NCBI RefSeq assembly: GCF_026151205.1
Contig: NC_087072.1
Coordinates: 1,633,375-1,697,374 of the forward strand
Length of the DNA: 64,000 nt
DNA from: Bolinopsis microptera
Lineage: Eukaryota > Ctenophora > Tentaculata > Lobata > Bolinopsidae
Reading direction: 5' to 3'
The number at the start of each line of letters is the position of its first letter. Within the stretch, counting starts at the first letter, position 1. The notes below the pieces were generated by a model. That model did not search any database and had not been told where the DNA came from. It saw only the letters and a program-made list of their open reading frames with translations. Shown here in pieces: positions 13,901 through 57,699 of this stretch. The translations under genes were made by a program, and so were the position numbers.

Positions 13901-16900
13901 CATATCATCATTAATTAACTGACTAATTGGTTTGTGGGCAAAAATTTCATCCAATCTGTCAATTGTGGGTTCACAAATTTTCAAATCTGAAAATGGGACA
14001 GAGTTTTGAAAATACAACTTTTCGTTTTGTTAAGATTTCTGCTGTGAGCTTCCTCCGACCCAAATCAAAATTCCAGCACCCCAATCGTGTCATTTGCTAT
14101 CTATAGTTGACTGACTAATTGGTTGCGGGTCAGAAATTCGGTCAAAACTGTAAAATTTCGGCCCTGGAAATTTCAGCTTCAAAAACCGAAAATGGGACAG
14201 AGTATGGGACAGTATGATTTTTCAATTCTTTTCGAAATTATGACTACCAGTACCTCAATTTGGTTTCATATCATCATTAATTAACTGACTAATTGGTTTG
14301 TGGGCAAAAATTTCATCCAATCTGTCAATTGTGGGTTCACAAATTTTCAAATCTGAAAATGGGACAGAGTTTTGAAAATACAACTTTTCGTTTTGTTAAG
14401 ATTTCTGCTGTGAGCTTCCTCCGACCCAAATCAAAATTCCAGCACCCCAATCGTGTCATTTGCTATCTATAGTTGACTGACTAATTGGTTGCGGGTCAGA
14501 AATTCGGTCAAAACTGTAAAATTTCGGCCCTGGAAATTTCAGCTTCAAAAACCGAAAATGGGACAGAGTATGGGACAGTATGATTTTTCAATTCTTTTCG
14601 AAATTATGACTACCAGTACCTCAATTTGGTTTCATATCATCATTAATTAACTGACTAATTGGTTTGTGGGCAAAAATTTCATCCAATCTGTCAATTGTGG
14701 GTTCACAAATTTTCAAATCTGAAAATGGGACAGAGTTTTGAAAATACAACTTTTCGTTTTGTTAAGATTTCTGCTGTGAGCTTCCTCCGACCCAAATCAA
14801 AATTCCAGCACCCCAATCGTGTCATTTGCTATCTATAGTTGACTGACTAATTGGTTGCGGGTCAGAAATTCGGTCAAAACTGTAAAATTTCGGCCCTGGA
14901 AATTTCAGCTTCAAAAACCGAAAATGGGACAGAGTATGGGACAGTATGATTTTTCAATTCTTTTCGAAATTATGACTACCAGTACCTCAATTTGGTTTCA
15001 TATCATCATTAATTAACTGACTAATTGGTTTGTGGGCAAAAATTTCATCCAATCTGTCAATTGTGGGTTCACAAATTTTCAAATCTGAAAATGGGACAGA
15101 GTTTTGAAAATACAACTTTTCGTTTTGTTAAGATTTCTGCTGTGAGCTTCCTCCGACCCAAATCAAAATTCCAGCACCCCATACGTGTCATTTGCTATCT
15201 ATAGTTGACTGACTAATTGGTTGCGGGTCAGAAATTCGGTCAAAACTGTAAAATTTCGGCCCTGGAAATTTCAGCTTCAAAAACCGAAAATGGGACAGAG
15301 TATGGGACAGTATGATTTTTCAATTCTTTTCGAAATTATGACTACCAGTACCTCAATTTGGTTTCATATCATCATTAATTAACTGACTAATTAGTTCGTG
15401 GGCAAAAATTTCATCCAATCTGTCAATTGTGGGTTCACAAATTTTCAAATCTGAAAATGGGACAGAGTTTTGAAAATACAACTTTTCGTTTTGTTAAGAT
15501 TTCTGCTGTGAGCTTCCTCCGACCCAAATCAAAATTCCAGCACCCCAATCGTGTCATTTGCTATCTATAGTTGACTGACTAATTGGTTGCGGGTCAGAAA
15601 TTCGGTCAAAACTGTAAAATTTCGGCCCTGGAAATTTCAGCTTCAAAAACCGAAAATGGGACAGAGTATGGGACAGTATGATTTTTCAATTCTTTTCGAA
15701 ATTATGACTACCAGTACCTCAATTTGGTTTCATATCATCATTAATTAACTGACTAATTGGTTTGTGGGCAAAAATTTCATCCAATCTGTCAATTGTGGGT
15801 TCACAAATTTTCAAATCTGAAAATGGGACAGAGTTTTGAAAATACAACTTTTCGTTTTGTTAAGATTTCTGCTGTGAGCTTCCTCCTGACCCAAATCAAA
15901 ATTCCAGCACCCCAATCGTGTCATTTGCTATCTATAGTTGACTGACTAATTGGTTGCGGGTCAGAAATTCGGTCAAAACTGTAAAATTTCGGCCCTGGAA
16001 ATTTCAGCTTCAAAAACCGAAAATGGGACAGAGTATGGGACAGTATGATTTTTCAATTCTTTTCGAAATTATGACTACCAGTACCTCAATTTGGTTTCAT
16101 ATCATCATTAATTAACTGACTAATTGGTTTGTGGGCAAAAATTTCATCCAATCTGTCAATTGTGGGTTCACAAATTTTCAAATCTGAAAATGGGACAGAG
16201 TTTTGAAAATACAACTTTTCGTTTTGTTAAGATTTCTGCTGTGAGCTTCCTCCCACCCAAATCAAAATTCCAGCACCCCAATCGTGTCATTTGCTATCTA
16301 TAGTTGACTGACTAATTGGTTGCGGGTCAGAAATTCGGTCAAAACTGTAAAATTTCGGCCCTGGAAATTTCAGCTTCAAAAACCGAAAATGGGACAGAGT
16401 ATGGGACAGTATGATTTTTCAATTCTTTTCGAAATTATGACTACCAGTACCTCAATTTGGTTTCATATCATCATTAATTAACTGACTAATTGGTTTGTGG
16501 GCAAAAATTTCATCCAATCTGTCAATTGTGGGTTCACAAATTTTCAAATCTGAAAATGGGACAGAGTTTTGAAAATACAACTTTTCGTTTTGTTAAGATT
16601 TCTGCTGTGAGCTTCCTCCGACCCAAATCAAAATTCCAGCACCCCAATCGTGTCATTTGCTATCTATAGTTGACTGACTAATTGGTTGCGGGTCAGAAAT
16701 TCGGTCAAAACTGTAAAATTTCGGCCCTGGAAATTTCAGCTTCAAAAACCGAAAATGGGACAGAGTATGGGACAGTATGATTTTTCAATTCTTTTCGAAA
16801 TTATGACTACCAGTACCTCAATTTGGTTTCATATCATCATTAATTAACTGACTAATTGGTTTGTGGGCAAAAATTTCATCCAATCTGTCAATTGTGGGTT

Positions 16901-17265
16901 CACAAATTTTCAAATCTGAAAATGGGACAGAGTTTTGAAAATACAACTTTTCGTTTTGTTAAGATTTCTGCTGTGAGCTTCCTCCGACCCAAATCAAAAT
17001 TCCAGCACCCCAATCGAAAAGGTGCCCCCTGTTGGCGCCCCCTCCCCTTTGGTGCCCCTCCCTAAAATTGAACAAATTAGGTGATTTCAGAGGATACACC
17101 GGTAAAATCTCTAAAAAAGTGTGTATCTAGAGCAAAATGCGCAGTTTTGCTAGTACTTTAGTTAAGTTTTCGAAATTGTCTCACATTCAAACGACGATTT
17201 GGCGCCCCCCTAAGACGGCGCCCCCTTGCACAGCGGGGTCAGCGGGGCCCTTCGTTACGCCACTG
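7914..17265. mobile_element. hAT-like non-autonomous DNA transposon carrying a satellite array
   Basis: The left end reads CAGTGGCGTAACG (7914-7926) and the right end is its exact reverse complement (17253-17265). Both are flanked by the 8-base direct repeat TGCAAAAG (7906-7913 and 17266-17273). Ends starting CAG and an 8-bp target duplication are typical of hAT elements. Subterminal sequence is rich in GGCGCC on both sides. No transposase is present; nearly the whole interior is a 366-bp tandem array. The insertion split an older R1 copy, whose halves rejoin cleanly when the element and one target repeat are removed. Confidence 0.9.
7957..17016 (+). repeat. 366-bp satellite array (about 24.8 copies)
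   Basis: The phrase AATGGGACAGAGTATGGGAC recurs every 366 bases (for example at 8335, 8701, 9067, 9433). Copies are almost identical. Few differences are visible: AGTTCGTG instead of GGTTTGTG in the first unit (8072) and near 15390, CATACGTG near 15180, CTCCTGAC at 15885 and TCCCACCC at 16252. Each unit is a dimer: ACTGACTAATTGG and GAAAATGGGACAGAG each occur twice per 366 bases, at spacings of roughly 170-200, in related surroundings. Short open frames inside the array (for example at 15757 and 16856) follow single-base variants and are not genes. Confidence 0.97.
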
Positions 17266-28614: not shown

Positions 28615-30494
28615 ACTCAGTTTCGAATGCTTAAGAAACAACGCAGAAACACTACACTAGATAGAATCATTCAGAGTTAAACAGATGAAATCATAAGCAG
28701 TCAACGTTAACAAGATCACAATATTATGTCATCCAGAATAATCATCGGCACGTTGAAGATCACGACGGGTTGTGATAGGAAGTGTGACAGAGGTTTGAAA
28801 TTAGATAACATTTACGGAACCTTTCCATTTCTATTGAATTAGAACTGTGTAGCTTTTCGGATTCGGATCATTTTATACGATATATCGAATTTTACATTCT
28901 TATTGGGCATGTTGTCCGGAAATTTGTTTTTAATAAAACGAAAATATTTTTATTTTTGCTCTGGGCCGATCTTTTTATTCAAGGTAACCGTGCTAAGTCT
29001 TATATATTAATTAATAATATCAATAATAATATCAATATATATAATATATCTTCTTTTCTTATTAATATAGGTTAAGTTTAATATTACTTTAAAATTTAAG
29101 TTGAATACAGTATGTTCTACTTTCTATGCAGTCCCTGGGTTAAAAGTGCAGTATTAAATAATACCATTTATGTTGGTTATCAATTTTAGTTATGAAATTT
29201 AGTTATTAGTTTGAGTTATCAATCCCTGATAGCCATGGTAACCTTATAAATAATAAGTTCTGTTTTATTAATCCTCATAATCATGATAATAATGATAGTG
29301 GTAAATGTAAGTTTTGGTTATAATAGTTCAATTCTACATGGTGTCCACAAGCATTTCATGTTCTCAGGAATTCTCTTCAGAAATTCATAGTTAACAATAA
29401 CATAGTCTTTAGATTTCATGATATTAGGTGCAAAGATTGTTATGTTTGGAAAGTGACCGCTTTATTATTGTATGGTATCATCATATTCATCAAGGTAGAA
29501 TTTATGATTATAATGTATGATAAATATCACTGTTCTTTGGTTTAATAATTCCAAAACTAAAGCATGCATCTCATCTTATTGTTGATTATTTCTTTAAATA
29601 TCTTCCATAGAGGGGTTTACATTTGAATTATTTGACAGTGACTCACTTCACAGACATGAGTCTGTGTGCATGAAGCATTTTTAGGAGTACACTGAATATT
29701 TTAATCTTATTTGAAAATTGTTACTGTATATTAATTTATTTTTGATGTACTTGAATTAAGTCTATTTTCTGTGCAGTTTACATTGATTTCGGCACGTTCA
29801 AGGACTGGAGGTGAAATTTAAAATTATCCTCAAGGTTATCAGATTATCAGGTTATCCGACGGTAATTTCCGTTTAGGGGACGTTTTCCAAGAAATAAGTG
29901 TGCTCGGTTGTTCTGGTTCCCTGCCACGTGAAAACTTTTAACATTTTAATTTGAGATAAGATTGCAGTGCCAAGAATTTAAAAAAAAAACATGGAGCCAC
30001 GAATACTCCGCTATCCTTTGAATTTAAAGTCTACAGCATGGTGAAGACGGCTGGCGCGAACACCTTACACTTGTACTGAGGGAGACCTTTTTGCGCGCAA
30101 GCAGCGCTGTGGCTGCGCGTTTCATGCTAACGAAACAAAGATCATCCGAGTTGAATATCAGGTGATACTTGGAAGATGCAGTACGCCCACGTGCTAAATA
30201 GACTATAGTAGTGGCCGGACCGTGCACCTGCGAAGGTATATCACGCTACTTTGCAGGTATTCAACAGTAAATGTAAATTGTAGCAGCTGGTCCACGTACT
30301 ATCATGTAGCAACGATGCTCAGCTGACAGCTCATACTATTCATGATCTGGTGACTTTTGGGAAATGTTTCGCTCACCCCCTCATCTGATATGATGGTAAG
30401 CAATTCCTTCTCAGGGAGAGATGTTACAATTTTTGGCTGTGATGGAAAGTAGAATCGTTGGTTTATGCATAGCAATCATAACTTACAGTTTGGT
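28615..30494. other. No gene recognised downstream of INSIG
   Basis: AT-rich sequence. A possible polyadenylation signal for INSIG (AATAAA) lies near 28932. A GC-richer island at about 30030-30240 has an open frame on the - strand (30024-30227) without recognisable features, possibly an old transposon fragment. Confidence 0.35.
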
Positions 30495-30596
30495 TACCGG
30501 AGGACTGCAGTGGGGGATGGGGGGGCACTGGAGGACTGCAGGGGGAGGCGCCACTGGAGGACTGCAGTGGGGGGGGGGGGGGGGGGGGGGCGCCTA
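30495..30596 (+). repeat. GC-rich minisatellite, left half (split by LINE)
   Basis: Copies of GGAGGACTGCAGTGGGG with GGCGCCACT links and a G run at about 30569-30590. The same unit resumes on the other side of the LINE at 37239-37392. Confidence 0.9.
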
Positions 30597-30962
30597 ATGA
30601 TTGATTGGGGGACTGGTCCGTAGTACCAGCCAATGTTTACTCAAAAGTAATATATAATTGAAATAAGTTAAATATTCATCCCCGAGGGGCACGCAGATTA
30701 TAATTGTGATGTTATCTATTAAAACTATTCAATTAAAATTTTATTGGTCGAGTCGACTGGCCCTGATCTGCAAACATATTTGATATTAGTAACTTTATGA
30801 CGCTGCCTCACCGCAATTAGGTGTGTTATCAGTGTAGATATTATGCGCTATGTGGCAGTGAAATAAGGAATGTGCTGTTAGAATGGCAGGTGGTTTGAAA
30901 TGTTGTCCTGATTCAGATTGTTTAATTTGAGCTGTATGAGTTTGGTTTTGAGTGATTATTGA

Positions 30963-33900
30963 CTATGTTCTTTGTGATTTACGTAATCCAGGTAGGTTGT
31001 GGAGTAAAAATGGTGGCCATTCGTCGTTGCAGCCAGCACTTTGCAAGTCTAGTAGTACTTTTTTTGACGAATTCTTATATATGTTGATAGAAAATATACT
31101 GGATGGGCATGTAATGCGAGTGTTATGCTCTGAAATAGCGAGCATTGGGCCTTTATAAAAGATGCTAGATCTCAGGTCAGTCTGTGAGTAAATTGATAAC
31201 CAGTCTAAGTTTTGTTCGTGTGTCGTTCCTTGTTTGGGTGTGTTAGGAGGGAAAAGTTCTGAAATCGATTTAGGTAACAAACTAGACATATTTCGAACTT
31301 TGTGCAGTAAAATAAGTGCGTTTTTAACGATAACCCCTTGAACGGTTAAGACCTCGTGTTCTTTAAATGCTAGTTTTGTGTGCTCTGGCAGTTTTCCGTC
31401 CTTGTAGTAGTAGTTCACATTTCCGGCCATAACTGCCCTCATACCTTGTTTTTGTTTAGCAAAAAGAGATTCTATAAGAGATTTTGAAGCAAATCCCCAG
31501 ACAAGTGAGCAGAAGTTTAAATGGGACTGAACAAAACTTTGGAAAATCTGTAAACGGGCCTTCATCGGCAATTTATGTTTTATCCTGTACATCACCCCAA
31601 TAAATCTTGACATCTTGCTCCTCAGTGCTTTTATGTGGCTACTCCAGTTAAGCTTTTCATCTACAATTACACCAAGAAACCGAGCTTCAGTTTTACGTTC
31701 TAATACTGTGTTTTCTATTTGTACTTTAATCAATGATGGTTCTATACGCTTTTTCGAGAAAATCATATAACACGTCTTTTTTAGATTTAGTGCTAATCCG
31801 TTGCTATTAACCCACCGTGATAATGTTTCCGTTAATTGGTTGACCCTTAGCATTAGTTCTTGGACATTGGAACCGTTAATAATGATATTTGCATCGTCTG
31901 CATAAAGTATGAATTTTACCATCATGTTAGAAATACCGGGAAGATCGTTGATGTATATGACGAAAAGTAAGGGACCTAATATGCTCCCTTGTGGAACACC
32001 ATGCACAATAGGCTTGTGGGACGAATGTGAATTGTTTATTGCTACATATTGGCTTCTATCACTTAGGTATGACTCAAACCACTTTAGAGCTATTCCCCGG
32101 ATGCCGTAGTGCTGTAATTTATTTAGCAGTGTAGCATGATCCAGGACGTCAAACGCTTTACTGTAATCTAATAATAGCAGTAGTGAAATTTGGTTTTTGC
32201 TAAGAGAGTGTAAAATTGTACTTTGTGCATTAAGAAGAGCATGTTCACAGGACCTTCCTGGACGGAAACCATACTGATTTTCGAATAAAGAACTATTTTT
32301 GTTGAGAAATTCTAAGACACGTCGGTGCATCAGTTTTTCGTAGATTTTTGAGAAGGAACCTAAGAGAGAGATGGGTCTATAATTTTCAACGTCAAGTTTA
32401 GAGCCTCCTTTATGGATGGGAGTTACTTTGGCAATTTTAAGGGCCTGTGGAAATATGCCTGTACTTAAGGATTCGTTGATAACTTTTGCTAATATAGCAA
32501 GGAAACTATCGCTGGAACTGGCTACTTTTAGTGGTTCAATTTTTGTGTCAAGGGTCGCTTTGTTCTTCAAACCAATAATAATTCTTTGAATTTCGATCGT
32601 TTCGGCAGGCTGTAGATAGATTGATTGAGAACAGGATGTGGGCAGATATTCCTGGAACCCCCCAGGGTCAAAGGTCTGACGGGCACTTATCTGAGTTTTG
32701 ATGTTCGTAGCAATGTTCGAGAAATAGTCATTAAACCTTTCAGCCACGGTATCTTCAGAACTCAAAATCGACCCGTCCGAACCTTTAAGTCTTAACTGCT
32801 CAGTTTTCCTGCTTCTACCAAGTAAACCGTTGATTATTTGCCATTGTTTTTTGGAGCAGTCCTGGTATTTTTCGAATTGTTTTTTATAGTATCGTTGTTT
32901 GGCAATGTTGACATGTTTTTTACAGAAAAGTTTTAGCTTTTTATAGGCCTCTATATTATTCATTGTAGGTTCAAGTACTTTACTATGATAACTTTCTTGT
33001 TTCCGCGCACATGCTTCTTCAAGCCAGGGTAATATCCAGGGTTTAGTATTAGAACGCTCATGCTCACGGCGAATATGATTGATTTTTAGTGGATAGGCAG
33101 TGTTATAGTGCTTGGTGTATATATCTGCAAGTTTACCGTATTGCAGACTAGCGTCGTCTGTACTTAATATCTCTTCCCACGTTTCCCCATCGATGAGTTC
33201 CCTAAAAACAGCATTGTTGGCCTCATTTATGACACGTGTTTCATAACTAAGTTTAGGTTGTGTGTTAGTGGGTAGCCTGAGATGTTGTTGCGAAGAGTTA
33301 CTTAGTTTAAAAGTGGTAACGATAGCAAGATGATCCGATAAATCCACCGTTACAACGTTACTGCTTATTGTGTGACTTATATTATTTGTGTAGACATGAT
33401 CAATTAAGGTAGCACTATGATCGGTGACTCGTGTCGGCCTTGAAACCGTCTGAACAAATCCATACTTGGCAAGGAGGTCTATGAGGTTCTGTCCAGAAAT
33501 ATCAGTTTTGAATTTTATAAGATCAATGTTCGCGTCCCCAAAAAACATGATATGCTTGCGAGAATGTCTGTCTAGACCTCGTAGCACCTTTTCCAAAGAA
33601 TTTAAGAAGTTCTGAGTACCTTTAGATGGGGACCTGTAAAAGTTTATCAATACTTTTGTTTGGTTTGTGCCTTTGCAATTATGCACCTTAACTAATTGAA
33701 ATTCAGCGCACGTGTCTTCGGGATCTGTGGTTGCCTTAAGATTTTCTATATTTTCGGGATCACAAACCCTCTTATTAATGTAAATTACAAGGCCACCACC
33801 TTTTCCTGATTTGCGTAATGGTTCCTGAACAATAGGCTCGTGAAACCCTTCAATTTTAATGTCGGAGATTCCGTTTGGTAATTTATCTAACTTCAAATTG

Positions 33901-34637
33901 GTTTCGTTAAGACACAAAACGTCATACTTAGTATAACTGTCGATTTCTTCACGGAAGTATGTGATGTTCTTTACTAATGATCGCACATTAAGAGAAAACA
34001 CTTTCAGTTCATCACGGGAGGAACTTTTAATGTTCGATGGCTGCTGATACTTACAATTGGTTAATATATCGCTGATTTCGTTCCAGTATTGGTAACTTTC
34101 ATCGTTATCCTGATCTAAAGCGTTACCAATCAAATCTAAACCATGTGAGCGGTCGTATGGATTGAAAAGAGCAGTGATTCGGCTGCTACAGTCCATAAAA
34201 AGATCATAAGATGTCACATAATAACCTGGGATTAACGACTCACAGCACTTTATGCAGCCTAAATTATCTCTAAAACACTTTTTATGAATGTACTCATCGC
34301 ACCATGGACAAAACCTAATGTTTAATCTAGAATAACAAAACCCGTTACAGGCCATGCACTTTGTTTTAAAATTAGTCTTGTTAACACTACTTTTTTTATT
34401 CGTCGGGACATCAGAGGCATTGATTGGGAGAATTGAGCTTATGCATTCATAGCAGAACCATGGGTTCCCAGAATTTATAATGTGCCGGGCATCGTTTTTT
34501 GATAGTTTCTGGCATTTTAAATGTTTACGTTCAGCACATAGGTCACAAATTAGGTCAGGAGAACTTTTAGGGATACGAACATAGCATTTGTCGCAATTGG
34601 GCTGTGAGCCGTGTTGCCTTTGATTACTTCGCTCCAC
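30963..34637 (-). CDS. LINE ORF2: PHD finger, zinc finger, APE endonuclease, reverse transcriptase
   Basis: This protein of about 1,224 residues would nick target DNA and copy the element's RNA into it. Residues 15-66 form a PHD-type finger (CDKC, CDLC, HLKC, WFCYEC). Residues 94-132 form a second Cys/His cluster (CMAC, CPWC, HKKC, CIKC). Residues 211-446 are an APE-like endonuclease with its key residues visible: SLNVRSL, LNETNL, FYRSPS, FGDANID, LIDHVYTN, LSDHLAI. The reverse transcriptase spans about 735-990, with catalytic Asp near 824 (LLLDYSKAFD) and the pair at 914-915 (YADD), plus GVPQGSILGP. The first codon shown is GTG. The frame is open for only 12 more codons back to a TAA at 34674-34676 with no ATG, and the first ATG comes after the PHD finger, so initiation is unusual. 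Confidence 0.93.
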   Translation of the reverse strand: MERSNQRQHGSQPNCDKCYVRIPKSSPDLICDLCAERKHLKCQKLSKNDARHIINSGNPWFCYECISSILPINASDVPTNKKSSVNKTNFKTKCMACNGFCYSRLNIRFCPWCDEYIHKKCFRDNLGCIKCCESLIPGYYVTSYDLFMDCSSRITALFNPYDRSHGLDLIGNALDQDNDESYQYWNEISDILTNCKYQQPSNIKSSSRDELKVFSLNVRSLVKNITYFREEIDSYTKYDVLCLNETNLKLDKLPNGISDIKIEGFHEPIVQEPLRKSGKGGGLVIYINKRVCDPENIENLKATTDPEDTCAEFQLVKVHNCKGTNQTKVLINFYRSPSKGTQNFLNSLEKVLRGLDRHSRKHIMFFGDANIDLIKFKTDISGQNLIDLLAKYGFVQTVSRPTRVTDHSATLIDHVYTNNISHTISSNVVTVDLSDHLAIVTTFKLSNSSQQHLRLPTNTQPKLSYETRVINEANNAVFRELIDGETWEEILSTDDASLQYGKLADIYTKHYNTAYPLKINHIRREHERSNTKPWILPWLEEACARKQESYHSKVLEPTMNNIEAYKKLKLFCKKHVNIAKQRYYKKQFEKYQDCSKKQWQIINGLLGRSRKTEQLRLKGSDGSILSSEDTVAERFNDYFSNIATNIKTQISARQTFDPGGFQEYLPTSCSQSIYLQPAETIEIQRIIIGLKNKATLDTKIEPLKVASSSDSFLAILAKVINESLSTGIFPQALKIAKVTPIHKGGSKLDVENYRPISLLGSFSKIYEKLMHRRVLEFLNKNSSLFENQYGFRPGRSCEHALLNAQSTILHSLSKNQISLLLLLDYSKAFDVLDHATLLNKLQHYGIRGIALKWFESYLSDRSQYVAINNSHSSHKPIVHGVPQGSILGPLLFVIYINDLPGISNMMVKFILYADDANIIINGSNVQELMLRVNQLTETLSRWVNSNGLALNLKKTCYMIFSKKRIEPSLIKVQIENTVLERKTEARFLGVIVDEKLNWSSHIKALRSKMSRFIGVMYRIKHKLPMKARLQIFQSFVQSHLNFCSLVWGFASKSLIESLFAKQKQGMRAVMAGNVNYYYKDGKLPEHTKLAFKEHEVLTVQGVIVKNALILLHKVRNMSSLLPKSISELFPPNTPKQGTTHEQNLDWLSIYSQTDLRSSIFYKGPMLAISEHNTRITCPSSIFSINIYKNSSKKVLLDLQSAGCNDEWPPFLLHNLPGLRKSQRT

Positions 34638-35301
34638 TTTCAGTGACAGAATAAAGTAAGAGTTGAAAACAGATTAAATAAATGAAACAAAAACTGAAAA
34701 AAGAAAAATTGATATTAATATATAATCTGATGGGTGTAGACAGTAGGCTGGTCAGATCCGTTTGCAAGAACTTTCAGTTCTGTGTGCAAGACAAGATCGT
34801 GACGGTTGGGCCTATTTGCTACTTAAAAACTACAGATTATCGTCTGCTCAATATTAACAGGCTCTGCAACTAGTTCTCTTAAAGAATTTGATAATAAATA
34901 ACAGAAAAGATTGACTAATGCGAGGGGCGCACGGACTGTGGATCAGTCATAGTCTGTCAGAAGTCGGTAGTTGGGTAGATTGTCGATGTAATTTGTCGTT
35001 TTCTGTATCAATTGTACAATGTAATAAGATGTAATAATATACAGTAGGCCTCGTATTTTGTTTTATAAATGGAGTATTAAACGATGCGATTAAGGGACTG
35101 TAATTAGAATGACTGATAAGTGTAAAGCCGAGATTACTGATAAGGCGAGATGTTGTGACAGGTGTAAGTGAGTTGCGATAATATTAGTATTCGACGTGTT
35201 TTGAAATTGTTATGCTACGTTGGCTTAATTTGAAATATGATTGCAGATCAGTCCTTTTACAAATTGATCATAGTACTAGAGTAGTTGTATGTGTTTAACT
35301 C
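34638..35301 (-). other. LINE inter-ORF spacer
   Basis: About 660 bases between ORF1 and ORF2 with stops in all useful frames on the - strand. No structure was recognised. It could hold an internal ribosome entry or reinitiation signal, because ORF2 has no upstream ATG. Confidence 0.5.
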
Positions 35302-36960
35302 TCAGCCGAAACCGCAACTATTCATATAGTTGTTACATATATCTAAAAATGGACGTCTTAGAGGTAGTGATCCTTTACGAAATCCTAAACTCAGTAAAAT
35401 CAAATTTATCCAACATGTCGTGAGAACAGATTTGCCAGTGTTATTTAAATGTATGCCATCCCGTGCAAGGTGAGGCAAACCGAAATTCAAATTGTCAAAC
35501 AAAAGAAAGTTGGGCGAGCGTAGTGAGAGATGAACAAGCAGCTCGTTCAGGTTGTTAATACTGTCGTTCAGCTCATGGTAAGGGTCTGCATTCAAGTTGA
35601 CTGGTGATATGGCGTCGAAGATGAATTGAGTGCCAGAGTGACTTATGAAATGTTTTAGGTGGTCGTGCAAGGTCATAGGATCAGCATGACCGAATCTGAG
35701 GTCGTTCACTCCGGCACTGATGAGGACTAAATCAGATTGTTCTATTGAGGCTTGGTGTTGTGCTAAGTCTCTCAGATGGAAGAGATCTTCTCTGAACGCA
35801 ATGATCGGCTCTTTGAGGAGAGAGCAGTCGAATGTACGGTTCTTGGAGTCAGACAGTATAAGAACTCGCCGAAGTCGTTTCGGTGTTGGGTGGTCCTTGT
35901 GTGGTGATGATAGGCCTGACGACAAGGAGCCTCGTTGGGGACGTCTGCTCTTCTTGACTGTACTGGGGTCTTCTAGCAGTCTGAAGGTAATGCTCAATCG
36001 GGGCCCCTCAAATTTCTCTTCAGGGATTCCTGGAACGGAGTGATCCCATTCATCCTGGCTTTGTCTGGACATGGTATAGAGAGAACCATGAGTAGCTGTG
36101 AATGTCTCCTTCTTGTACTCTCCAGGGATCTTCCTCCGAAATACCACTTCTCTAGGACAGCCGAGTGACAGAGTGATGATGTTACTATCCCTACTGATAC
36201 TGGGTTCGTTGTCTGAGTGGGGTGGAATGCAGGAGCGGGGAGAATCGTATGAGGTGACCATGGCTGAGTTGAAATTAAGATCTGGATATTCGGTCTTAAG
36301 AACATTAGCAATTTCACTCAAATATGACGATTTTGAAATGTCTCTAGCATGATGGGAACCGCCGGAATAGCGATATGAGAACTGACCATAGTAGGCAACA
36401 CGTCTATTAGGAAAAGTACGGTCATAAGTTACGTCATCGTTCAGCGCAGAACTCGTAAATGTGTCAAAATGCGCACCATCAAGTGTCTCAAACGGTAGTG
36501 TACCTGAGTTTGTCGAGTTACCGTGTAGTCCTGGGCTGTGTAGTCGTTGGCTGGGGGGTGGGGGGATGGGCGTCTGCTGAGGGCTGCAGGGTGGTTGAAT
36601 AACTGTGGTAGTTGTTGAACTGAGAGTTTGGCCAATGTCTTTTTGAAGTCCTTTCAACTGCTTACTAGCGTCCTCCGTGTGCCTCGTAATGATTTCAGTT
36701 AAATTATCAACGCAATTAGATAACAAGTTAAATAAAGAATCTTGTTCTTCGCCAATAAATTGTTGGAAATGCTCTTTTAGGGCCACACGAGCTTCGTCAA
36801 TGTCCTTTTTACTACGAGTTTTACGTGGCAGATTCTTGATAAATTCAGGATTCAAAATGAGGTTGCTCTCCCTCATTATCTGATCTTCATCTAGCTTGTC
36901 GACTAGCTCTAGGCTGGTCAGCGCTGAGAATCCCCCTAATCGTTTTGGTTCAGGTTCCAT
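35302..36960 (-). CDS. LINE ORF1: AlkB-like 2OG-Fe(II) dioxygenase fused to SGNH esterase
   Basis: A 552-residue protein read from the ATG at 36960. Residues 1-115 are charged and likely helical. A Pro/Ser/Gln-rich linker follows. Residues about 185-335 carry the complete AlkB signature: H-x-D in IPPHSDNEP (His 248, Asp 250), a distal His in EWDHSVPG (307), and the AlkB-specific R-x5-R in GPRLSITFR (321 and 327). These bind iron and 2-oxoglutarate in known AlkB enzymes, which remove alkyl groups from nucleic acids. Residues about 365-530 are an SGNH/GDSL hydrolase: LILSDSKNR (Ser 372, with SDS for GDS), SAGVND (Asn 419) and DGIHLNNTG (Asp 501, His 504). Esterase domains are known in CR1-like ORF1 proteins; an AlkB domain is not something I know there. 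All catalytic residues are kept. Confidence 0.88.
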   Translation of the reverse strand: MEPEPKRLGGFSALTSLELVDKLDEDQIMRESNLILNPEFIKNLPRKTRSKKDIDEARVALKEHFQQFIGEEQDSLFNLLSNCVDNLTEIITRHTEDASKQLKGLQKDIGQTLSSTTTTVIQPPCSPQQTPIPPPPSQRLHSPGLHGNSTNSGTLPFETLDGAHFDTFTSSALNDDVTYDRTFPNRRVAYYGQFSYRYSGGSHHARDISKSSYLSEIANVLKTEYPDLNFNSAMVTSYDSPRSCIPPHSDNEPSISRDSNIITLSLGCPREVVFRRKIPGEYKKETFTATHGSLYTMSRQSQDEWDHSVPGIPEEKFEGPRLSITFRLLEDPSTVKKSRRPQRGSLSSGLSSPHKDHPTPKRLRRVLILSDSKNRTFDCSLLKEPIIAFREDLFHLRDLAQHQASIEQSDLVLISAGVNDLRFGHADPMTLHDHLKHFISHSGTQFIFDAISPVNLNADPYHELNDSINNLNELLVHLSLRSPNFLLFDNLNFGLPHLARDGIHLNNTGKSVLTTCWINLILLSLGFRKGSLPLRRPFLDICNNYMNSCGFG

Positions 36961-37235
36961 TATCAAAAACTTACTTTACTGGAAAGTTTGTGGCAGCTTT
37001 ATGTAATTGGACGGTTCTGATTCCCGTACCGCCTAGCCTCAGTCTGTCAGTCGTAGTTAGTTACCACAGTCCACGTCACAAGCACATGCAATTTAGCTGT
37101 TATCTACATACAGATAAGAGTGGACAAACGTACTACAGAAAGAAATGTGTGTAATGAGAGAAATGAGTGTAATGAAAGAAATGTGTGTAATGATCTATAT
37201 GTAATTATGAACACGATAGCCTGAGGTCCCCAGGT

Positions 37236-37392
37236 AAGAGGACTGCAGTGGGGGGGGGGGGGGGGCACTGGAGGACTGCAGTGGGGGGCGCCACTGGAGG
37301 ACTGCAGTGGGGGGCGCCACTGGAGGACTGCAGTGGGGGGGGACGCCACCGAAGGACTGCAGTGGGGGGCCTGCGCTGGAGGACTGCAGGCT
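37236..37392 (+). repeat. GC-rich minisatellite, right half
   Basis: About five copies of a 26-30 base unit, CACTGGAGGACTGCAGTGGG plus GGCGC, with a G run near 37250. It is the continuation of the array at 30495-30596, interrupted by the LINE. Confidence 0.92.
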
Positions 37393-44060: not shown

Positions 44061-47000
44061 CACCCTGATTTTTTTGTGAAACTTGGTTTCGAGATAGCAG
44101 TTGTCCGACAAACTAGGACCAGTGACCAAACTTTTGAGGGGGTCCCGGACCCCAACCGCCAAAAGGTGCCCGCGGGGCAGCCACGCCCATATTTGGTCCA
44201 AATTAGGCCCAATTTAGCCAAATACCTTGAACATGCTCAGAAACCAGATTTTAGGTGCTTTACTTGTAGCTAGTAGTCCCCTGAACTCATATACGAATTT
44301 TCATCAAGATTGGACAAAAAATGACTGAGTTATGAGCCAAAAACCATATGACCATATTTGGGCATACGCACCAAATTTGATCAATTTTTGCCCATAAATT
44401 GGTCAAATATCAATATTTTTGAATGAAACCAACTTTATATGTAAGATAAGCCTATACTACACATTCTCTATGATTATCAGCTCAATATCTACCTAACTGT
44501 AGATTCTATGTTCAAATAATCGCAAAAAATGAACAAAATCGCTCATATCTCAGTTCGCGATATTTGCAAAACTGATTTCGCTCAAAACAATAGAACTCAA
44601 TAGGGTTTCAATATTTTTACATGAAATTTTCAGAATCAACGTAGAATCGCATTTCGACCTTAAGTTTTGTATTGGAATTTTGAGTTAGGCCTTTAAAAAA
44701 ATTCGGCGGCCAAATTCTGAATTTTGCAGTGCAAATTTTGGAATTTGGCCGCCAACTAGAACATAATAAATGAACAACATAATACAATAGACCACGTCAT
44801 AATAAATAAAACACTAATCGAACTGTCCCGATTTATAAGAATCGTCAACAGCAGCAGCAGCACCAGTTGCTGTCTTTACGATGTCAATCCTCTCCTTGTC
44901 CATGTAAGTCTCCTCACTTACAATCCTTTTCTTGTCTTCTTCGACGATGAACTTTGTCAAGAACAAGGTTGGCTTGAAACTGTTCTTCTCAACTATCTTC
45001 CTCAGGTATGATAGCCCAGAGTTATTTTGCACGACACCTCGTGCAAAAGCTCCTCTTAGAATCTCAGGACCTCGGAACTGAAAATATAAATGTGGTACAA
45101 TAGACAGTTATATGATTACTACTCGCACAAGTAATTGAATTCTGAAACAATGATTATATTTATAGCCCAAATGATTAATCGGCTCATTATACCTTCTTTT
45201 TCGAATGCTGGCTGTGAACCGAGCTGAAGAGGGATTCCAAGTCGTCAGTGTGGAGACCCTTCGAGAGTTTCACAAGCATTAGATCGCTAGTGAATTCGTC
45301 AATTATTGGCAGCAGCAATTGATAGAACTCGCCGTACAAGTGCGTCTTTTTCCTTTCTGCATACCTGATTTAAAGAGCTCAGTAATTCCTCTCCTATGCA
45401 ATGGGGGTAAAAATGTTTTGCAAATAACAGCTGGTCTAAGATATGATTAAAAATGTTTAGTGATTCAATAAGACTAACTCTGAAAGGTCACCAGCTTGCT
45501 GTCTCCTCCAACCACAAAAGCTATTCTTTCCTTTGGGGCACAGTTTGTGACGATGAGCAGGAGGTGTCACCATGCAGTTGTGCAAGAAAACTCCCCGGAT
45601 CCCTTTGTTCAAACGTTTCATCTGTGATAGTTGTCGTTGTAATCTTGTATATTTCCGATGTCAGGTACTGCGAGACAGAAAAAATATGCATTGTTTGACC
45701 TCTTAGGACTTGTGACGAAATATTTATAATAAAATTATATTTATACCTTCGCTTCGACCGATATCGTTTCAGCAGTCACGCTCTTAACAACCTTCTTGAC
45801 CTGTATCTGCAAACTGGTGCACTTCTCTCCCGTCATCCGGTGACCACCAGCCCCTCTTATGGAAACATTCTTCTGCTCTGTTACCTCGATTTTGTCCTTC
45901 TTCTTTTTTTCTACCAGAACATTCACAAGTGGGAACTTGTGATTCCTCAATCTAGCTCCGAGGTTTCGGCACCAGTGTTCCACGCAGTAGTTATCGTTGA
46001 CTCTCAGGCATCCGACAACACCCTTCTGGTGGTCTAGCTCCCACTGCTTAAACTCGTCGCTCTTCCTGTTATAAGTATAATTTACTATTAATTTACAGTG
46101 CAGAACTTGGTCATATCAAAAGCAAAAAAAAACTATTACCAATCGATAGGCCATAAATCACACTTACAGAAATGATTTCCATTCAGGAGACTTTGCATCT
46201 GTATGCTGTAGTTTTGTACAAGTGGCACACAGACCCAAATCCTTGTACGCAAATCTGATATGGAACATTACATCTGAGTCCCTATCACGTACGACTCCGT
46301 CAAACACCACCCCTCCTTCCGGCCAGCTTTGACTCCGTTCGAACATTTCCCGAACACCTGTGGCCTCCATTCCGCCACTGGATCCCTTCGTAATTAGCCT
46401 GCGATTAGACTGTAAGTTTTGTAATTGGACACTATTGCCGTTTGTCATTGAGCAATTCTTATTGTACGTTTACTGATTATCATAAAGACTGAATATAAAG
46501 ATAGCACTAGCAGTATCTACTAAGAACTTACTGAGCAGTTGGCACAGGAAACAATCTCACTGTCTTTCTGCATATTGCAGCTATTGCAATATTTCGACTT
46601 GAAGATGCAGTCTAACACTTTACCAGTTTTTGAGGACAACACCACAACAAACCCAAAGTTTGACGTAAAACCCGCTTTCGACCAGCTTCCGTCGATTTTA
46701 ACTGTGATTCGAGGTTTCTCACCGACGTACAAAGTTGACTGCTGATTCTTAGCTAGAGAAAGCTCCTCGACTCTATTCCTATGAACCTGCTCCATTAGAA
46801 TTTCCTCTTCAATGGACAGTAACTTCGATTGATTCCTCTTGAATGTTGAACTGGAATCTTGGTGCTCTATCCCCATCAGGCCTTTGAACTTGTTGAGACC
46901 TGATGTAACAATAAATTTCTGTTGATAGATCAGTAAGGTTATTTACAAAAATACTGAAAGATAGATGTTGATAAGTTGATACGAGATGGTAGAGTAAAAA

Positions 47001-48886: not shown

Positions 48887-50482
48887 ACCCCCCCCCCCCC
48901 CCCCCCCCCCTTAAGTTTTTTAAAACAATTAGTGTTTTTTATTCATTTCTACGAAAAGTTTCTCAATATTATTAACAATAAATGGGCAAAAATTTAGAAA
49001 AAATTATGGTTTGGTCCCGGCTAAAATGCCGAATTTTAATCGGGACTGGATTCCCAAAAATAGGCCAATTTTAACCACGAGCGGGATTCCGGTCGAGCCT
49101 TGATTGTATTTGACCTTGATATCCTTGACACAATTTTCAGAGTTTCACAAAAGTGCAGACGAACCTATGCAGCCAGCAAGACTGGATCCGACGTGGTTTT
49201 TAGAGGAGTTCAACTCCGCAAGAGCTCCAGCAGATGTCTTGAGAACTGATTTGATGACGTCACACTTAAGAGTGACGTCACAGGAAATGCTGTAACCTCT
49301 GTTGTTTATCCAGTTCATTGCTGACGGTTTCTTGTCAACACAGTAGTTACCTGAATCGTAGCAAGTAATGATTAGTGTGGTGTATGAGGGGAAATGTTCC
49401 AATGTACAAAACATTAGAGGCTATCACCTTATTCAATTAACGAAGTTTTTTCTCGTCTTTAATGATAAAATAGGGAAAAACTGAAATAGATCGATGAATT
49501 CTGATGCAGTGGGCTTGCACTTTCGTATATATTAAGTTTCATCATTGAACAAAAGGAATAATTGTTTACACAGTAAGAGTTTTCCGCTAAGAGTCTAACA
49601 TAAACTCACCACTTATACTAAGGACAGTCATGTTCTCAAAAACGTCAACCGTTTGAAGAAACTGAAGCATCTTCTCGCAGCCTTTACTGATCATGTTCAT
49701 ACCCATTGCATCACCAGTCGCGGCTACTACCCTCAGAAACAGTAACTTTCCCGCTTGCTTCGGATTAATCGACTTCAACTTGGCGAATCTACTGGTACTC
49801 TCGAACTGCGCCCTTATTTTCTCAAAATTACCAGGTTCTAATATCCAATCAGCAGCTTGCTTTGCTGCCCTGCCGCAACTGAACTTGATCAGTGGAGCCC
49901 GGGTCATCCCGAAGTAGGTTTGAGTACTGTCTATTCCACCACTGAAAATAGTTGGTGGTTCAGAAATTTCAACGGGGTATCTGCTTTGTTTAATGAGAAT
50001 TAAGCAAGTTTAACGTAATCACAAAGAGGAGGTTCCATAATGGACCTATAAACTGGAGAGGGGAGATAAAATAACAAATTAACGTGAAAAATAACGAGGT
50101 ACAATACTAACAAGAGCTAGCACCTTTCTCTAACAGCCCTGCATCCTCTAGACAAACTAGCAACCAGCGCTCCCTCAGTAGTTGCTATGGGAACATTATA
50201 CTCGCTCCCATTTATAAGAAGAGGTCCCGCCAGACCCAGAGGAACGGGCACGTAACCAATAACATTTTCACAGCAACTTTTAGTAGCAGTCTCGTAGTTA
50301 GAATAGTGCTTGTAGGGGATAGTATCTCTGATATGATCAGGGTAGTCTGATAGAAGGAACTGTTGTCGGATCTGCACTGCTCTCAGAGGTTCCAGTTCTC
50401 GGTCTAGGGTGTATTGTTTTATCTGGCCTGTCTCAAGTAAGGATAGGATCTCCTCGTCTGTTTTATCGGTAAGTTTTGGCAT
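42806..50482 (-). CDS. HMGCR: HMG-CoA reductase catalytic domain, five exons, last exon not found
   Basis: The enzyme makes mevalonate from HMG-CoA using NADPH. Exons on the - strand: 50482-50124, 49941-49610, 49350-49165, 43248-43091 and 42910-42806. All join in frame, giving 380 residues. Landmarks: [26 protein letters not shown] (catalytic Glu about 103), [25 protein letters not shown] (catalytic Lys about 237), [16 protein letters not shown] (catalytic Asp about 313), [14 protein letters not shown]. The family then continues with a segment ending in the catalytic His of GHLV-x-SH; no such exon was found at lower coordinates. The start Met ([11 protein letters not shown]) corresponds to the linker before the catalytic domain. 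An AG just before it allows an upstream exon, but no membrane domain was found. The donor of exon 3 (GTTCGT) is weak. Intron 4 is about 5.9 kb and holds nested transposons. Confidence 0.9.
44814..47876 (-). pseudogene. Mutator-like transposase gene with introns, frame breaks
   Basis: Nine exons can be placed on the - strand with GT-AG borders: 47876-47659, 47531-47278, 47165-47012, 46899-46532, 46409-46168, 46065-45747, 45667-45479, 45364-45193 and 45077-44814. Landmarks of animal Mutator-like transposases: a start MGPKKRK, IKVDGSW-like [28 protein letters not shown] (exon 4), [15 protein letters not shown] followed by RDRDSD (exon 5), NLGARLRNH and GAGGHRMTG (exon 6), [14 protein letters not shown] (exon 7), [12 protein letters not shown] (exon 8). 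Exons 1, 2 and 7 each need a frame change to read through, so this copy is probably dead, unless the assembly has errors. It belongs to the inner TTAA element. The superfamily is uncertain because TTAA targets are unusual for Mutator. Confidence 0.75.
48834..48910 (+). repeat. Poly-C run (77, one A)
   Basis: Right end of the inner transposon. A single A at 48887 interrupts the run. Confidence 0.9.
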
Positions 50483-50529
50483 GGCTGATAACAGGATTTT
50501 ATATTGATAGTAAAATGAAATCAATACCT

Positions 50530-51380: not shown

Positions 51381-51737
51381 TCACCTGACAGCAGCCCGAC
51401 TTGTCCCACTCCCAGCAAAGTATTTAGTGTTCATATACTTCATAAACATGAACATGAAGAGTTTATCACCCCTCCTTGAGAAGGCGAACAAGCACCCATT
51501 GTACCACCTCTTACACACACCACACACCACCACCAGCTCCTCGAAGGAGAGGTAGGAGAATATGAGGTCGATACAGTCGTCCGGGAGGATGTGGACGGAG
51601 GGTTTAGCTGGGTCGGACGAGGGGTTCCCCAGGATCTGGTATCGGGGAGTGTATTTAAAGTGGGAGTCTACCCAATCTCTCTCAGTTTCATCTTCTTTTT
51701 TATACTTTCTGTGGTGCACTTTTGGGAAGCGCAACAT
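51381..51737 (-). CDS. Small F-box protein
   Basis: A single open frame of 118 residues. An F-box lies at about residues 49-79: ILPDDCIDLIFSYLSFEELV followed by GVCKRWY, the usual Leu-Pro start and Val-x-x-x-W end. F-box proteins bind Skp1 in SCF ubiquitin ligases; the substrate-binding part is usually C-terminal. Here only about 38 residues follow (FMFMFMKYMNTKYF), with no recognisable repeat, so it may be a short F-box-only protein or the first exon of a longer one. The start Met (MLRFPKVHHRKY) is the first in frame. It lies head-to-tail upstream of HMGCR on the same strand. Confidence 0.7.
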   Translation of the reverse strand: MLRFPKVHHRKYKKEDETERDWVDSHFKYTPRYQILGNPSSDPAKPSVHILPDDCIDLIFSYLSFEELVVVCGVCKRWYNGCLFAFSRRGDKLFMFMFMKYMNTKYFAGSGTSRAAVR

Positions 51738-52424
51738 TCTATTGGGGGCTATGAATTGAGGGAAGAAAATATTGATAGATACTGAGTTTAAACAAAATCT
51801 TCTAAATTAGTTGTGATTAATCCACTTAATTTGATACATTATTGTGCCGGTATTAATTTGGTTCAGAGTTTCACCGTCCCTATTCAATTAATTTTCATCG
51901 AATCATTCTATTATTTCCTATTATATCTCATAATGAAAATTAATGATAATCTTCTTGTGATATTTTACATTTTTAGATGAGCACATGTCAGTATGAATTT
52001 AGTCAAAACAGTAAAATTTTTCAATGAAATTTGTAAATTATTTGAATGATATAAACACTTATTATTATCTCATTTTATAAACAATAAACGTGCAAATTAA
52101 TCGGGTAATTTAATTTTAATCAGATAAATTATGTTTCATATCGCATGGATTTCAATATTTAAACAGCTACACATTCAATTATTCATGCATTGTTTGATAG
52201 TTCCTCTAGCTCCATGTAGTGTAGTTGTCATGGTAACTAGTGTAGTTGTCATGGTAACTATGCATTGTTTGATAGTTCCTCTAGCATTTAATACTTAAAG
52301 TTAAATTTCTGATCACAGGATAATAAATGTTTGATATCCTTGGTGTAGATTTGAATATGTCAAAAACATACGGAAGAGTAAAAAGTGTTCCTTCAGAAAA
52401 GGAATTTAATTTATATAATACTAG
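51738..52424. other. No gene; short direct repeats
   Basis: AT-rich. At 52186-52285 TTGTTTGATAGTTCCTCTAG occurs twice, around two tandem copies of TAGTGTAGTTGTCATGGTAA. Nothing else is seen. Confidence 0.5.
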
Positions 52425-54044: not shown

Positions 54045-57000
54045 CTAAGCGATGGCAGCAATAAGAGCCGACCCAAGTCCAGAGCCATCAGTGGCAACTT
54101 CCAGATTAACAGTGCAGTTCAACTCCTGGAGAGTTGACCTCATTACATTAGCAAATGTAGCGTGTTTTAGGAACACTGATCCGTCCACTGCTACGGTAAA
54201 CGGTACTTTCTCACGTTTCAGCCAGATAGCGTAGACACCTGGGTAATTTGTTTTTATTACGGGGTCAGTTTAACTTTAGAAGTGGAAAAAATTAATGCAT
54301 AATATGCAAACATACAATTGTGGATAATGTAAGTAATATTGATGTCATGTAACATATTGTGTGAATGATGCAGTTTGTTAACAAGGATTTAATGAATACG
54401 GACAATAATTGTGATTTGTAAATATAATATACTACATATAACTTACCTGCTGCAGCAAGTTTAGCAGCCCTGTTACTAACAGCATTACAAACTTGTCGCA
54501 CCACAGCAATATCTGCAGGACTCGCTTTAGGGAACACGGCACGACACTCCTCTTCAGAACTGGGCACATTGGACTGTTAAATACCAGGTTTCCTCTTAGA
54601 TTGTAAAGGCAAAAACGTCGACAATACATGATGTATTTTGCTTAATAGTGATCGTAGATTTTTGCCCCAGCAATCCACTCAGGAGAGCGAAGGATGTAAA
54701 ATAAAATACAAGGTTCGGAATTTCTGTCTGCTCAGTGTAAATAAGTTGGACTCATAGTCTTGGCACCAAGCCATTCGACTATTTAAACTGAACTGTTAAA
54801 CTCACTTAATACAATCACTGACAGTTGATCCGTCGAGTGAGTCTTCCTTGTGAAGCATATCTGGGATATTCCCGGCGAAGATGCAGTTTTTATGTAGAGT
54901 TCGTTTCAGCAGTGCTAGTCTTGTCAGTTCCCCGAGATACATGCCACTAATCATCTTCTCATACCTGTAAGTGTGGGTCATCTTAGAGATAGGGAAAACA
55001 TAGCTATATAGTTATATAATACATGCATATAATATATTATTATATAATATATATATATATACTCTAGAAGAAAGAAGCAACGGTTGTGATACTTACAGTT
55101 GCTTGCCAGCGTTAACACTGGAAGCATCAAGCTGTTTGTCGTAGTCTGTTTGTAGATCAGCAAGATGGCCCAGCTCACCAAAGTTTCCCCACTCCATGTT
55201 AATTACTACCTTATCAATTAGACAAGAGTTATTTATAAACTTATTTGTTTAGAGAAATTATATACATCAATCAAGTTCATTCCATTTAATGAAACAAGAC
55301 AAAATTATTAAAACGGGTGAATATTGAATATTGTAACAGCTAACTGTAATTAACAGCTAATTAACAGCTAATTAACAGCTAATTAACAGCTAATTAACAG
55401 CTAATTGTAATTAACAGCTAATTAACAGCTAACTGTAATTAACAGCTAATTAACAGCTAATTAACAGCTAATTGTAATTAACAGCTAATTAACAGCTAAT
55501 TAACAGCTAATTAACAGCTAATTAACAGCTAATTAACAGCTAATTAACAGCTAATTAACAGCTAATTAACAGCTAATTAACAGCTAATTAATAGCTAATT
55601 AACAGCTAATTAACAGCTAATTAACAGCTAATTAACAGCTAATTAACAGCTAATTAACAGCTAATTAACAGCTAATTAACAGCTAATTAACAGCTAATTA
55701 ACAGCTAATTAACAGCTAATTAACAGCTAATTAACAGCTAATTAACAGCTAATTGTAACAGCTAATTAACAGCTAATTGTAACAGCTAATTAACAGCTAA
55801 TTAACAGCTAATTAACAGCTAATTAACAGCTAATTAACAGCTAATTAACAGCTAATTAACAGCTAATTAACAGCTAATTAACAGCTAATTAACAGCTAAT
55901 TAACAGCTAATTAACAGCTAATTAACAGCTAATTGTAACAGCTAACTTTAACTGACCAACCATCTCCTCAGAAGACTTGATATTCGGAACATTGGACACT
56001 TTCTCAGTGTAGGCAGCGTTAGTACCAGTTCCCAAAATCAATCCTGAATGACAGTTAGCGTATTTGGAACATCCAGACACTAGTGTTCCTGCAGTGTCGT
56101 TGGCTAAAGCTACAACCTTAACTTTCTTGGTGACCTGACAATATTGATATTATTGTAACATATAAATTGTTGATATTTTAGCCATTTCGGACACGTATTT
56201 TGTAGGTGTAGAAATATAGGTAAGGTTACGAAGACAGAGTGAGGGATTATGTAATAAGTACAAACCTCATTCTTAGCCAAAGCTTTGTTTAAAAGTTCTG
56301 CTACATTTTTATCCACCACGTCTGAGTTCGAAAAGCCTTTTGTCCATCGAACTAATGTACCATAGCACAATGAAGATTGTTGCATTGGGAAGGAAAAAGT
56401 AAACCCAAGAGGAATTTCGGTGTTTTCCAAACTTTCCTAGAGTAAGGAATTGTGATGAAATTTTTAAATATAACCAATAGCGTGTTAAGGTTAAGGTGGT
56501 AATGTTTAAAGAAGACCTACAGCTACATGTGTAAATGTAGGTACTGAATGTAGGTACTGACCTTCTTCATGAAGCTTGCCACACAATCTGCCAAGTGCTC
56601 AAAGAGTTCTTGCCCTCCCACAGTTTTCATTCTACTCTCCATGCAAACTGTCGTTGATTTTATAACAGGACTACTGTTTGGTATCAATTTCACAAGTATG
56701 ACTCGAAAAGTTGACCCACCGAAATCTGCAGAGAATTATAGTTCAGCTGGCATTAATTTGGCAACTTACAAAAGTTGTAGGTCTCTCTTTAAAACTAGGC
56801 AGCTGGGTTGTTGAGATCATATTCAGACTATCGTGCTTTAAAAGGCTGAAAACCTTTCAGTGTTAGAATTATAGGTCTTGATTGTGATCTATAATCCATG
56901 TCAATGAATTATTACAATTGTCAAACTAAACTTCAATCATCTTAAAAAGCATATATTATGTTTGCTATTATAAATTGACCTTAGAGGAAGAAATGTGTAC

Positions 57001-57690
57001 GCAGTGAGTAACTGTGGCGCCAAATTAATTTAAAGTTTAATTCAAAATATTAGATAAATATTAATAATGTGAATATACCCAATTCCTGATCGAACTGAAA
57101 TATAAAACGCTTGGCTTTATAGATCGAAGGACGAAGGCAGCTGATCGACTTGATCTCACTGGACTCTAGTTCTACATGAACCGAAATAATTTTGATATCT
57201 GCACTTTTTGGCAAATTTAACATCGCTGGCTTTGCATGATTATGCAGCGCCGCACAGATTAATCCGAGCAGGTAATCGCCTTTTTGGGGGACTTCACACA
57301 GTCCTAACCAATCGATTCCTACATGACCCGTGTCAAGCAGAATATTTAATTCGGCTCTTGTTTTTTACTTCAAGGTCACGAAACTGAGCGAAAATGTTCA
57401 ATCTAAAAGGAGGTGGCTAGCTCCCGAAACTTGAATTTTTGCCATCGATTTGGTCAAGATCTAGACGCTTTGCAGATTGTGCAAGGCTCAAATAGAGTAC
57501 ACCCTAGGGTTATCGACATACCTAATGCCAAAAAGTTTCCAGACTCGCTACCATTTGGCAAGGTATGTATATAGGTCGGAAGCATAAGCAGGCTTGATTG
57601 TTTCCCTGAAAGACCTTTTTCCATTTCTTGGTACATGTCATTGGCTAATTTCTCAAGCCTTGTCTTGTCAACATTGTCAAACTCAGACAT
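54045..57690 (-). CDS. Hexokinase, single-domain, eight exons
   Basis: It phosphorylates glucose with ATP in the first step of glycolysis, in the cytosol. Exons on the - strand: 57690-57522, 56725-56562, 56436-56266, 56134-55961, 55209-55097, 54964-54806, 54559-54447 and 54238-54045. All have GT-AG borders and join in frame to a TAG, giving 418 residues, shorter than the usual 450-480 mainly at the N-terminus. Landmarks: [13 protein letters not shown] (phosphate loop, 56-68), [12 protein letters not shown] (glucose loop, from about 121), LANDTAGT (catalytic Asp about 181), [24 protein letters not shown] (227-238), [18 protein letters not shown] and [10 protein letters not shown]. The start MSEFDNVDK is the first ATG in the frame; an AG shortly upstream allows a 5' exon. 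There is no second hexokinase half and no mitochondrial-binding segment is evident. Confidence 0.93.
55328..55950 (+). repeat. 11-bp minisatellite in a hexokinase intron
   Basis: More than 50 copies of AACAGCTAATT fill most of the intron between exons 4 and 5, with occasional TGTAACAGC inserts. The array ends about 10 bases from the exon 4 donor. Confidence 0.97.
57053..57376 (-). other. Unexplained open frame in hexokinase intron 1
   Basis: From a TAA near 57377 the - strand stays open for about 100 codons, reading [20 protein letters not shown], then [35 protein letters not shown] and [10 protein letters not shown]. Its composition is protein-like and the other strand is closed. No family was recognised and no hexokinase segment matches. 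It could be a retroposed gene fragment or an exon of an overlapping gene. Confidence 0.35.
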
Positions 57691-57699
57691 CACCCTGTG

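Follow-up and report, generated by a model that had tools for sequence, protein, structure and literature searches.

A recently active LINE of the ctenophore Bolinopsis microptera encodes an ORF1 protein with an AlkB-type domain and an SGNH hydrolase

We analyzed a stretch of 64,000 nucleotides from Bolinopsis microptera (contig NC_087072.1, positions 1,633,375 to 1,697,374), hereafter the window, whose minus strand carries a long interspersed nuclear element (LINE) with two open reading frames (ORFs). ORF1 (35302-36960) encodes 552 amino acids (aa) counted from its ATG. ORF2 (30963-34637; 1224 aa) lies downstream on the same strand, behind a 664-bp spacer (34638-35301), and encodes an endonuclease and a reverse transcriptase. 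The extent of the element, 30598-37155, is the one it shares with a dispersed copy on contig C3 (L050), which is 99.79% identical over 6558 bp. Because this copy is nearly identical and both of its ORFs are open, it points to recent movement; the window element is an intact, two-ORF, endonuclease-type LINE that was active recently. No second copy was found within the window, and no clear target-site duplication was seen at the ends common to the window element and L050. A 28-bp repeat (30557-30584 and 37238-37265) was considered as such a duplication and withdrawn after the comparison with L050; its two copies sit beyond the shared ends, at distances of 13 and 82 bp, within a minisatellite. 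This minisatellite, with a 26-bp unit, occurs near both ends of the element (30494-30592 and 37238-37390), and none is present in the 80 bp beside the ends of L050.

The initial annotation had proposed that ORF1 of this LINE fuses an AlkB-type demethylase to an SGNH esterase, which was borne out by profile, by fold and by the linkage to ORF2. The protein, encoded throughout on the minus strand, consists of a coiled coil, an AlkB domain, a basic linker and an SGNH hydrolase. The predicted coiled coil is a long helix in the AlphaFold2 model (aa 51-118; 36607-36810), and the profile search links this region weakly to tektin, keratin and other coiled-coil proteins. It is followed by the AlkB/2-oxoglutarate-Fe(II) oxygenase domain (aa 151-331; 35968-36510), the linker (aa 333-361; 35878-35964), which is modeled with a low predicted local distance difference test score, and the SGNH/GDSL hydrolase domain (aa 362-530; 35371-35877). 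The stretch from residue 331 to 364 carries a net positive charge in 45 of 47 relatives.

For the AlkB domain, profile search and structure prediction were both strongly positive. In a hidden Markov model (HMM) search, PF13532 matched the window ORF1 above its cut-off (E value of 6.5e-19), as well as all 47 members of A1 and all 63 members of A4, and the predicted structure has the AlkB fold. The best matches by HMM, profile and fold were ALKBH3 and ALKBH2, with 25-27% identity over about 176 residues in the fold comparison, and the AlkB-family chains listed in the sequence-profile search at E values of up to 1 were likewise ALKBH2 and ALKBH3. The domain is thus not closest to ALKBH5. A chance motif match as the source of the AlkB signal is rejected by HMM, profile and fold alike. 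The catalytic residues comprise the iron ligands H248 and D250 of the HSD motif (36211-36219), the distal iron ligand H307 (36040-36042) and the AlkB-family arginine motif R321-x5-R327 (35980-36000).

The SGNH profile PF13472 scored 26.2 bits in the window protein (E value of 1.3e-5) against a cut-off of 32.9, and it matched all 47 relatives at E values of up to 0.01. The predicted structure has the SGNH fold, and the catalytic Ser, Gly, Asn and D-x-x-H are all present. These fall in block I (SDS, with the nucleophile S372; 35845-35853), block III (GVND; 35701-35712) and block V (DGIH, with D501 and H504; 35449-35460). S372, G417, N419 and D420 are found in 47/47 relatives, and block V in all 46 that have letters there (one gap). 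The esterase of the zebrafish element ZfL2-1 was not among the 50 fold-comparison matches listed, an absence that does not exclude it. The earlier claim that the catalytic residues are intact therefore holds for both domains of the window protein, and they are kept in its relatives.

The genome (G000; 264,652,675 bases in 232 contigs) yielded 79 scored ORF1 matches from 818 candidates. At least four places match all of ORF1, or almost all of it, at 98.6-100%. All five AlkB residues, abbreviated HDHRR, are complete in 29 of the 30 loci that were read, the remaining one being cut short. We also compared the ORF1 with database proteins, of which 182 were scored in all. A first family comprises 63 proteins, the window ORF1 included, and HDHRR is complete in every one of them and in 168 of the 182. 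In the remaining 14, the residues read QDYSR in five proteins and HDHRQ in one; three more have N or L in place of R327 and no letter aligned to R321, and other gaps account for the last five. QDYSR is common to five proteins of the second family (P0291, P0293, P0294, P0300 and P0302), in which the AlkB domain is predicted to be inactive. Other proteins with the AlkB-SGNH pair thus exist in the databases, and other ORF1 copies with it in the genome. Given the matching relatives and the 99.79% identical copy, an assembly chimera is an unlikely source of the fusion. Similarly, the database relatives and the many genome copies led us to reject a recent chance capture of AlkB.

Over 46 proteins of the first family, mean pairwise identity was 47% for the AlkB domain, 56% for the SGNH domain and 30% for the N-terminal part, and the AlkB and SGNH distances were strongly correlated (Mantel r of 0.82; maximum of 999 permutations, 0.27). 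Among the matches listed, all ORF1 relatives with a named organism come from the ctenophore Mnemiopsis leidyi (P0052, P0058, P0059, P0284, P0285 and P0301), as do the organism-named ORF2 relatives P0076, P0095 and P0156 among the 120 of 234 matches listed. No ORF1 relative was found in viral_contigs or in genome_contigs, and viral_contigs held one distant ORF2 match (L001). When contigs of equal length were used to pair ORF1 with ORF2 among the database relatives, there was no evidence of pairing in family 1 (1 versus 0.4 expected) or in family 2 (0 versus 0.9 expected).

These data bear on the idea that the AlkB fold is chiefly there to bind nucleic acid within the ribonucleoprotein, replacing the absent RNA recognition motif or zinc knuckle, with catalysis secondary. 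In a 2013 study, the esterase ORF1 proteins (ORF1ps) of Repbase are reported without a structural RNA-binding domain (PMC3905857), and the five relatives with a predicted inactive domain have nevertheless retained it, both of which would fit such a role. However, iron ligands are unnecessary for binding alone, and the conservation of the catalytic residues in the database proteins and genome loci, together with their low variability (of 177 scored positions, they belong to the 18 that vary least), speaks against it. We thus consider a mainly binding role unlikely.

The intact residues had also suggested that selection may be acting on the protein, which was upheld for most copy families that could be tested. 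We summed pairs within copy families A to F, so that the values are not independent. The ratio of nonsynonymous to synonymous change (pN/pS) in the AlkB domain was 0.08 in A, 0.09 in D and 0.14 in F, and family E had no change, whereas it was 1.0 in B, with broken frames, and 2.0 in C (5 synonymous and 35 nonsynonymous changes). In the SGNH domain, the ratios were 0.11, 0.46, 0.40, 0.20, 0.14 and 0.04 for A to F, respectively. Comparing the window copy with L025, L026 and L027 gave dN/dS values of 0.24, 0.46 and 0.23 for AlkB and of 0.11, 0.08 and 0.08 for SGNH. Most of these values indicate purifying selection, which for the AlkB domain holds in most testable copy families and is not indicated in B and C.

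We next looked at what follows ORF1 in the 30 genome loci. An ORF2 of the window type lies within 1500 bp downstream in 20 of them, while five (L028, L033, L035, L036 and L037) are followed by an endonuclease from another ORF2 lineage. This second lineage was read in L051, where the frame is broken; over 205 aa, its reverse transcriptase shares 40% identity with that of the window. Five loci have no ORF2 within 1500 bp. In the case of L042, one of the five, an open ORF2 of 1219 aa is seen in a more extended stretch (L052), so that ORF2 sequence adjoins ORF1 in 26/30 loci in all. Furthermore, in L025 and L027 the ORF2 stretches match the window with 98-99% identity, while ORF1 reaches just 76-77% at the DNA level, and in L027 the switch in identity falls within the ORF1-ORF2 spacer. 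Because of this mismatch, and because two ORF2 lineages stand beside related ORF1s, the sequences indicate that the AlkB-SGNH ORF1 has been handed between LINEs as a module.

To place the AlkB domain among cellular enzymes, we searched the genome with PF13532, which gave 587 candidates, 150 of them scored; the matches listed were all over the cut-off and mostly lay within long open frames. Among the best, L053, L054 and L055 consist of AlkB alone. In a tree, L053 grouped with human ALKBH2 (support of 100/96) and L054 and L055 with human ALKBH3 (99/98), and a branch with support of 98/96 set 55 transposon-type AlkBs apart from these host and human enzymes. An earlier tree of 47 transposon-type and 20 cellular AlkBs had a separating branch supported at 100/100. 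The cellular outgroup consisted of 18 loci found in genome_contigs with the family-2 alignment (two of them, L002 and L006, bacterial by their gene tables), eight of which were reused in the later tree. Since the separating branch is present in both trees, the transposon AlkBs fit one old origin, with L057 on a long branch whose position is unsure. A recent capture of host ALKBH2 or ALKBH3 is rejected, as the host enzymes group with the human ones. P0057, which neighbored the human pair in a first small tree with two cellular rows (73/52), no longer did so with more rows.

L057 lies within an open frame of 2459 aa (L061:1803-9179; contig C12 of G000) that encodes, in order, SGNH (1.3e-6, below its cut-off), AlkB, Helitron_like_N (3.7e-22) and a PIF1 helicase (1.3e-20). 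Judged by these profile matches, the enzyme pair is also carried, in reversed order, by a Helitron. The PF13532 matches listed include other long frames with AlkB, of 2200-3400 aa. As a Helitron carries the pair without reverse transcription, a role limited to RNA becomes less certain, and some weight moves to single-stranded DNA. At its extreme, the enzyme would work on DNA alone (the insertion site, the cDNA or the single strands of Helitron rolling circles), or on protein, and not on RNA, which we regard as quite improbable.

ORF2 matched PF00078 (1.8e-37), PF14529 (2.7e-9) and PF03372 (6.1e-7), and its best match in the PDB was human LINE-1 ORF2p (4.9e-16). The apurinic-type endonuclease domain (aa 215-436; 33330-33995) and the reverse transcriptase domain (aa 742-992; 31662-32414) are preceded by two cysteine- and histidine-rich regions. 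The first is a PHD-like zinc finger at the N terminus (aa 18-65; 34443-34586), with C18, C31, C34, H39, C42, C62 and C65 present in at least 90% of 24 ORF2s; the PHD model matches four of the 24, at positions not seen. The second is a putative zinc-binding motif (aa 94-132; 34242-34358) whose C110, C113, H118, C121, C128 and C131 are invariant among the 24. The part of ORF2 ahead of codon 95 (34355-34637, minus strand) lacks an in-frame ATG, although it includes the conserved PHD-like finger. The ORF2 of the second full copy (L050:1570-5244) likewise opens at GTG, and a TTTTTTCAG stretch lies upstream. Translation could possibly start at a non-ATG codon or depend on splicing or trans-splicing. 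Elsewhere, the window contains a 366-bp satellite (7970-17016; 24.7 copies, 99% matches), a piece of a Mutator-like transposase (46520-46942, minus strand; PF20700, 4.3e-15) and, on the minus strand, exon pieces of HMG-CoA reductase (49593-50524), an F-box gene (51381-51806) and hexokinase (56116-57711).

ORF1 proteins with an esterase have been described in CR1, RTEX and Penelope elements (PMC3905857) and in L2 (PMC4120745). Such type IV ORF1s, including that of ZfL2-1, share with the window ORF1 a coiled coil, a basic stretch and a C-terminal SGNH domain with an intact triad, and the window element also resembles theirs in having an endonuclease and a reverse transcriptase. By its coiled coil and esterase, the window ORF1 is of type IV. 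However, the Repbase members of that type are reported to have no further nucleic-acid-binding structural domain (PMC3905857), whereas in the window ORF1 an AlkB domain separates the coiled coil from the esterase. It therefore represents a new subtype of type IV ORF1. No AlkB is named in the results of a 2014 study of 448 Jockey-superfamily elements (PMC4120745). From ALKBH3 and ALKBH2, with which it shares fold and catalytic residues, the ORF1 domain differs in its place in a transposon ORF1, its fusion to an esterase and its separate branch.

The transposon-borne AlkB in PMC9289625 and PMC12786077 is that of an orchid Ty3/Gypsy element (Gypsy_Pa_2799), and the AlkB passages of PMC7915175, PMC12211846, PMC4982230 and PMC12140624 mention none. 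Our literature searches on AlkB in transposons, which covered open-licence papers and not Repbase reports or AlkB in Helitrons, found no description of an AlkB-SGNH LINE ORF1, in line with the initial annotation. The orchid element is likewise an AlkB-carrying retrotransposon, and its enzyme is active in vitro; it is a giant long terminal repeat element of a plant, with an ALKBH5-like domain in an extra ORF, and the word "esterase" is absent from the paper (PMC9289625). In contrast, the domain of the window element lies in a LINE ORF1, is ALKBH2/3-like and SGNH-fused, and belongs to a large diverged family. To our knowledge, the AlkB domains of plant RNA viruses lie in a viral polyprotein, without an esterase and without reverse transcription. 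They too are carried by a replicating RNA element, in the Flexiviridae and others (PMC544882 and PMC11784248).

The orchid element suggests that the AlkB domain might erase N6-methyladenosine (m6A) from the element RNA and so allow escape from host recognition or decay. The ALKBH5-like ORF is able to bind RNA and, in vitro, to remove m6A (PMC9289625), and AlkB-like domains occur in plant RNA viruses as well (PMC11784248). However, when host ALKBH5 is overexpressed, it removes m6A and human LINE-1 becomes less mobile (PMC12211846). Profile and fold furthermore assign the domain studied here to the ALKBH2/ALKBH3 type, and the pair is present in a Helitron frame too. ALKBH2 and ALKBH3 act mainly on 1-methyladenine and 3-methylcytosine. 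We thus find m6A erasure distinctly unlikely and, because of the kinship with ALKBH2/3, favor m1A and m3C as substrates.

On this basis, we propose that ORF1p self-associates through its helix and would package the nucleic acid of the element, as has been proposed for the RNA of elements with esterase ORF1ps (PMC3905857). The AlkB domain may strip lesions of the N1-methyladenine and N3-methylcytosine type from the single strands of the element, be it the RNA template, the first cDNA strand or both, and thereby unblock polymerases. For the esterase we suppose an action on membranes or lipids, an idea put forward for ZfL2-1. In published work, the R2 reverse transcriptase used in OTTR is hindered by m1A, and treatment with AlkB takes away both m1A and m3C (PMC12140624); in one model ALKBH3 clears both from mRNA (PMC8254245). 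We give this proposal as a whole even chances. Tentatively, and with slightly less than even confidence, we extend it to an old AlkB-SGNH accessory module of mobile elements in ctenophore-like animals, found in LINEs of several lineages and in one or more Helitrons, which would repair the single-stranded replication intermediates of these elements.

The presence of the pair in many mobile elements suggests that these bring their own tool for cleaning copied nucleic acid. Since both active sites of this ORF1p have been retained across deeply diverged proteins, in numerous copies and next to ORF2s of two lineages, demethylation of bases is probably important to the elements. LINE ORF1 proteins are poorly understood. 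The one described here suggests a testable connection between transposition and alkylated single-stranded nucleic acid, shows clearly that LINEs exchange ORF1, and might supply demethylases with which modified RNA could be reverse transcribed. Plant RNA viruses and orchid Gypsy elements also carry AlkB domains, to which these data add an independent parallel, and, if the proposal is true, the pair would represent transposon-encoded template repair.
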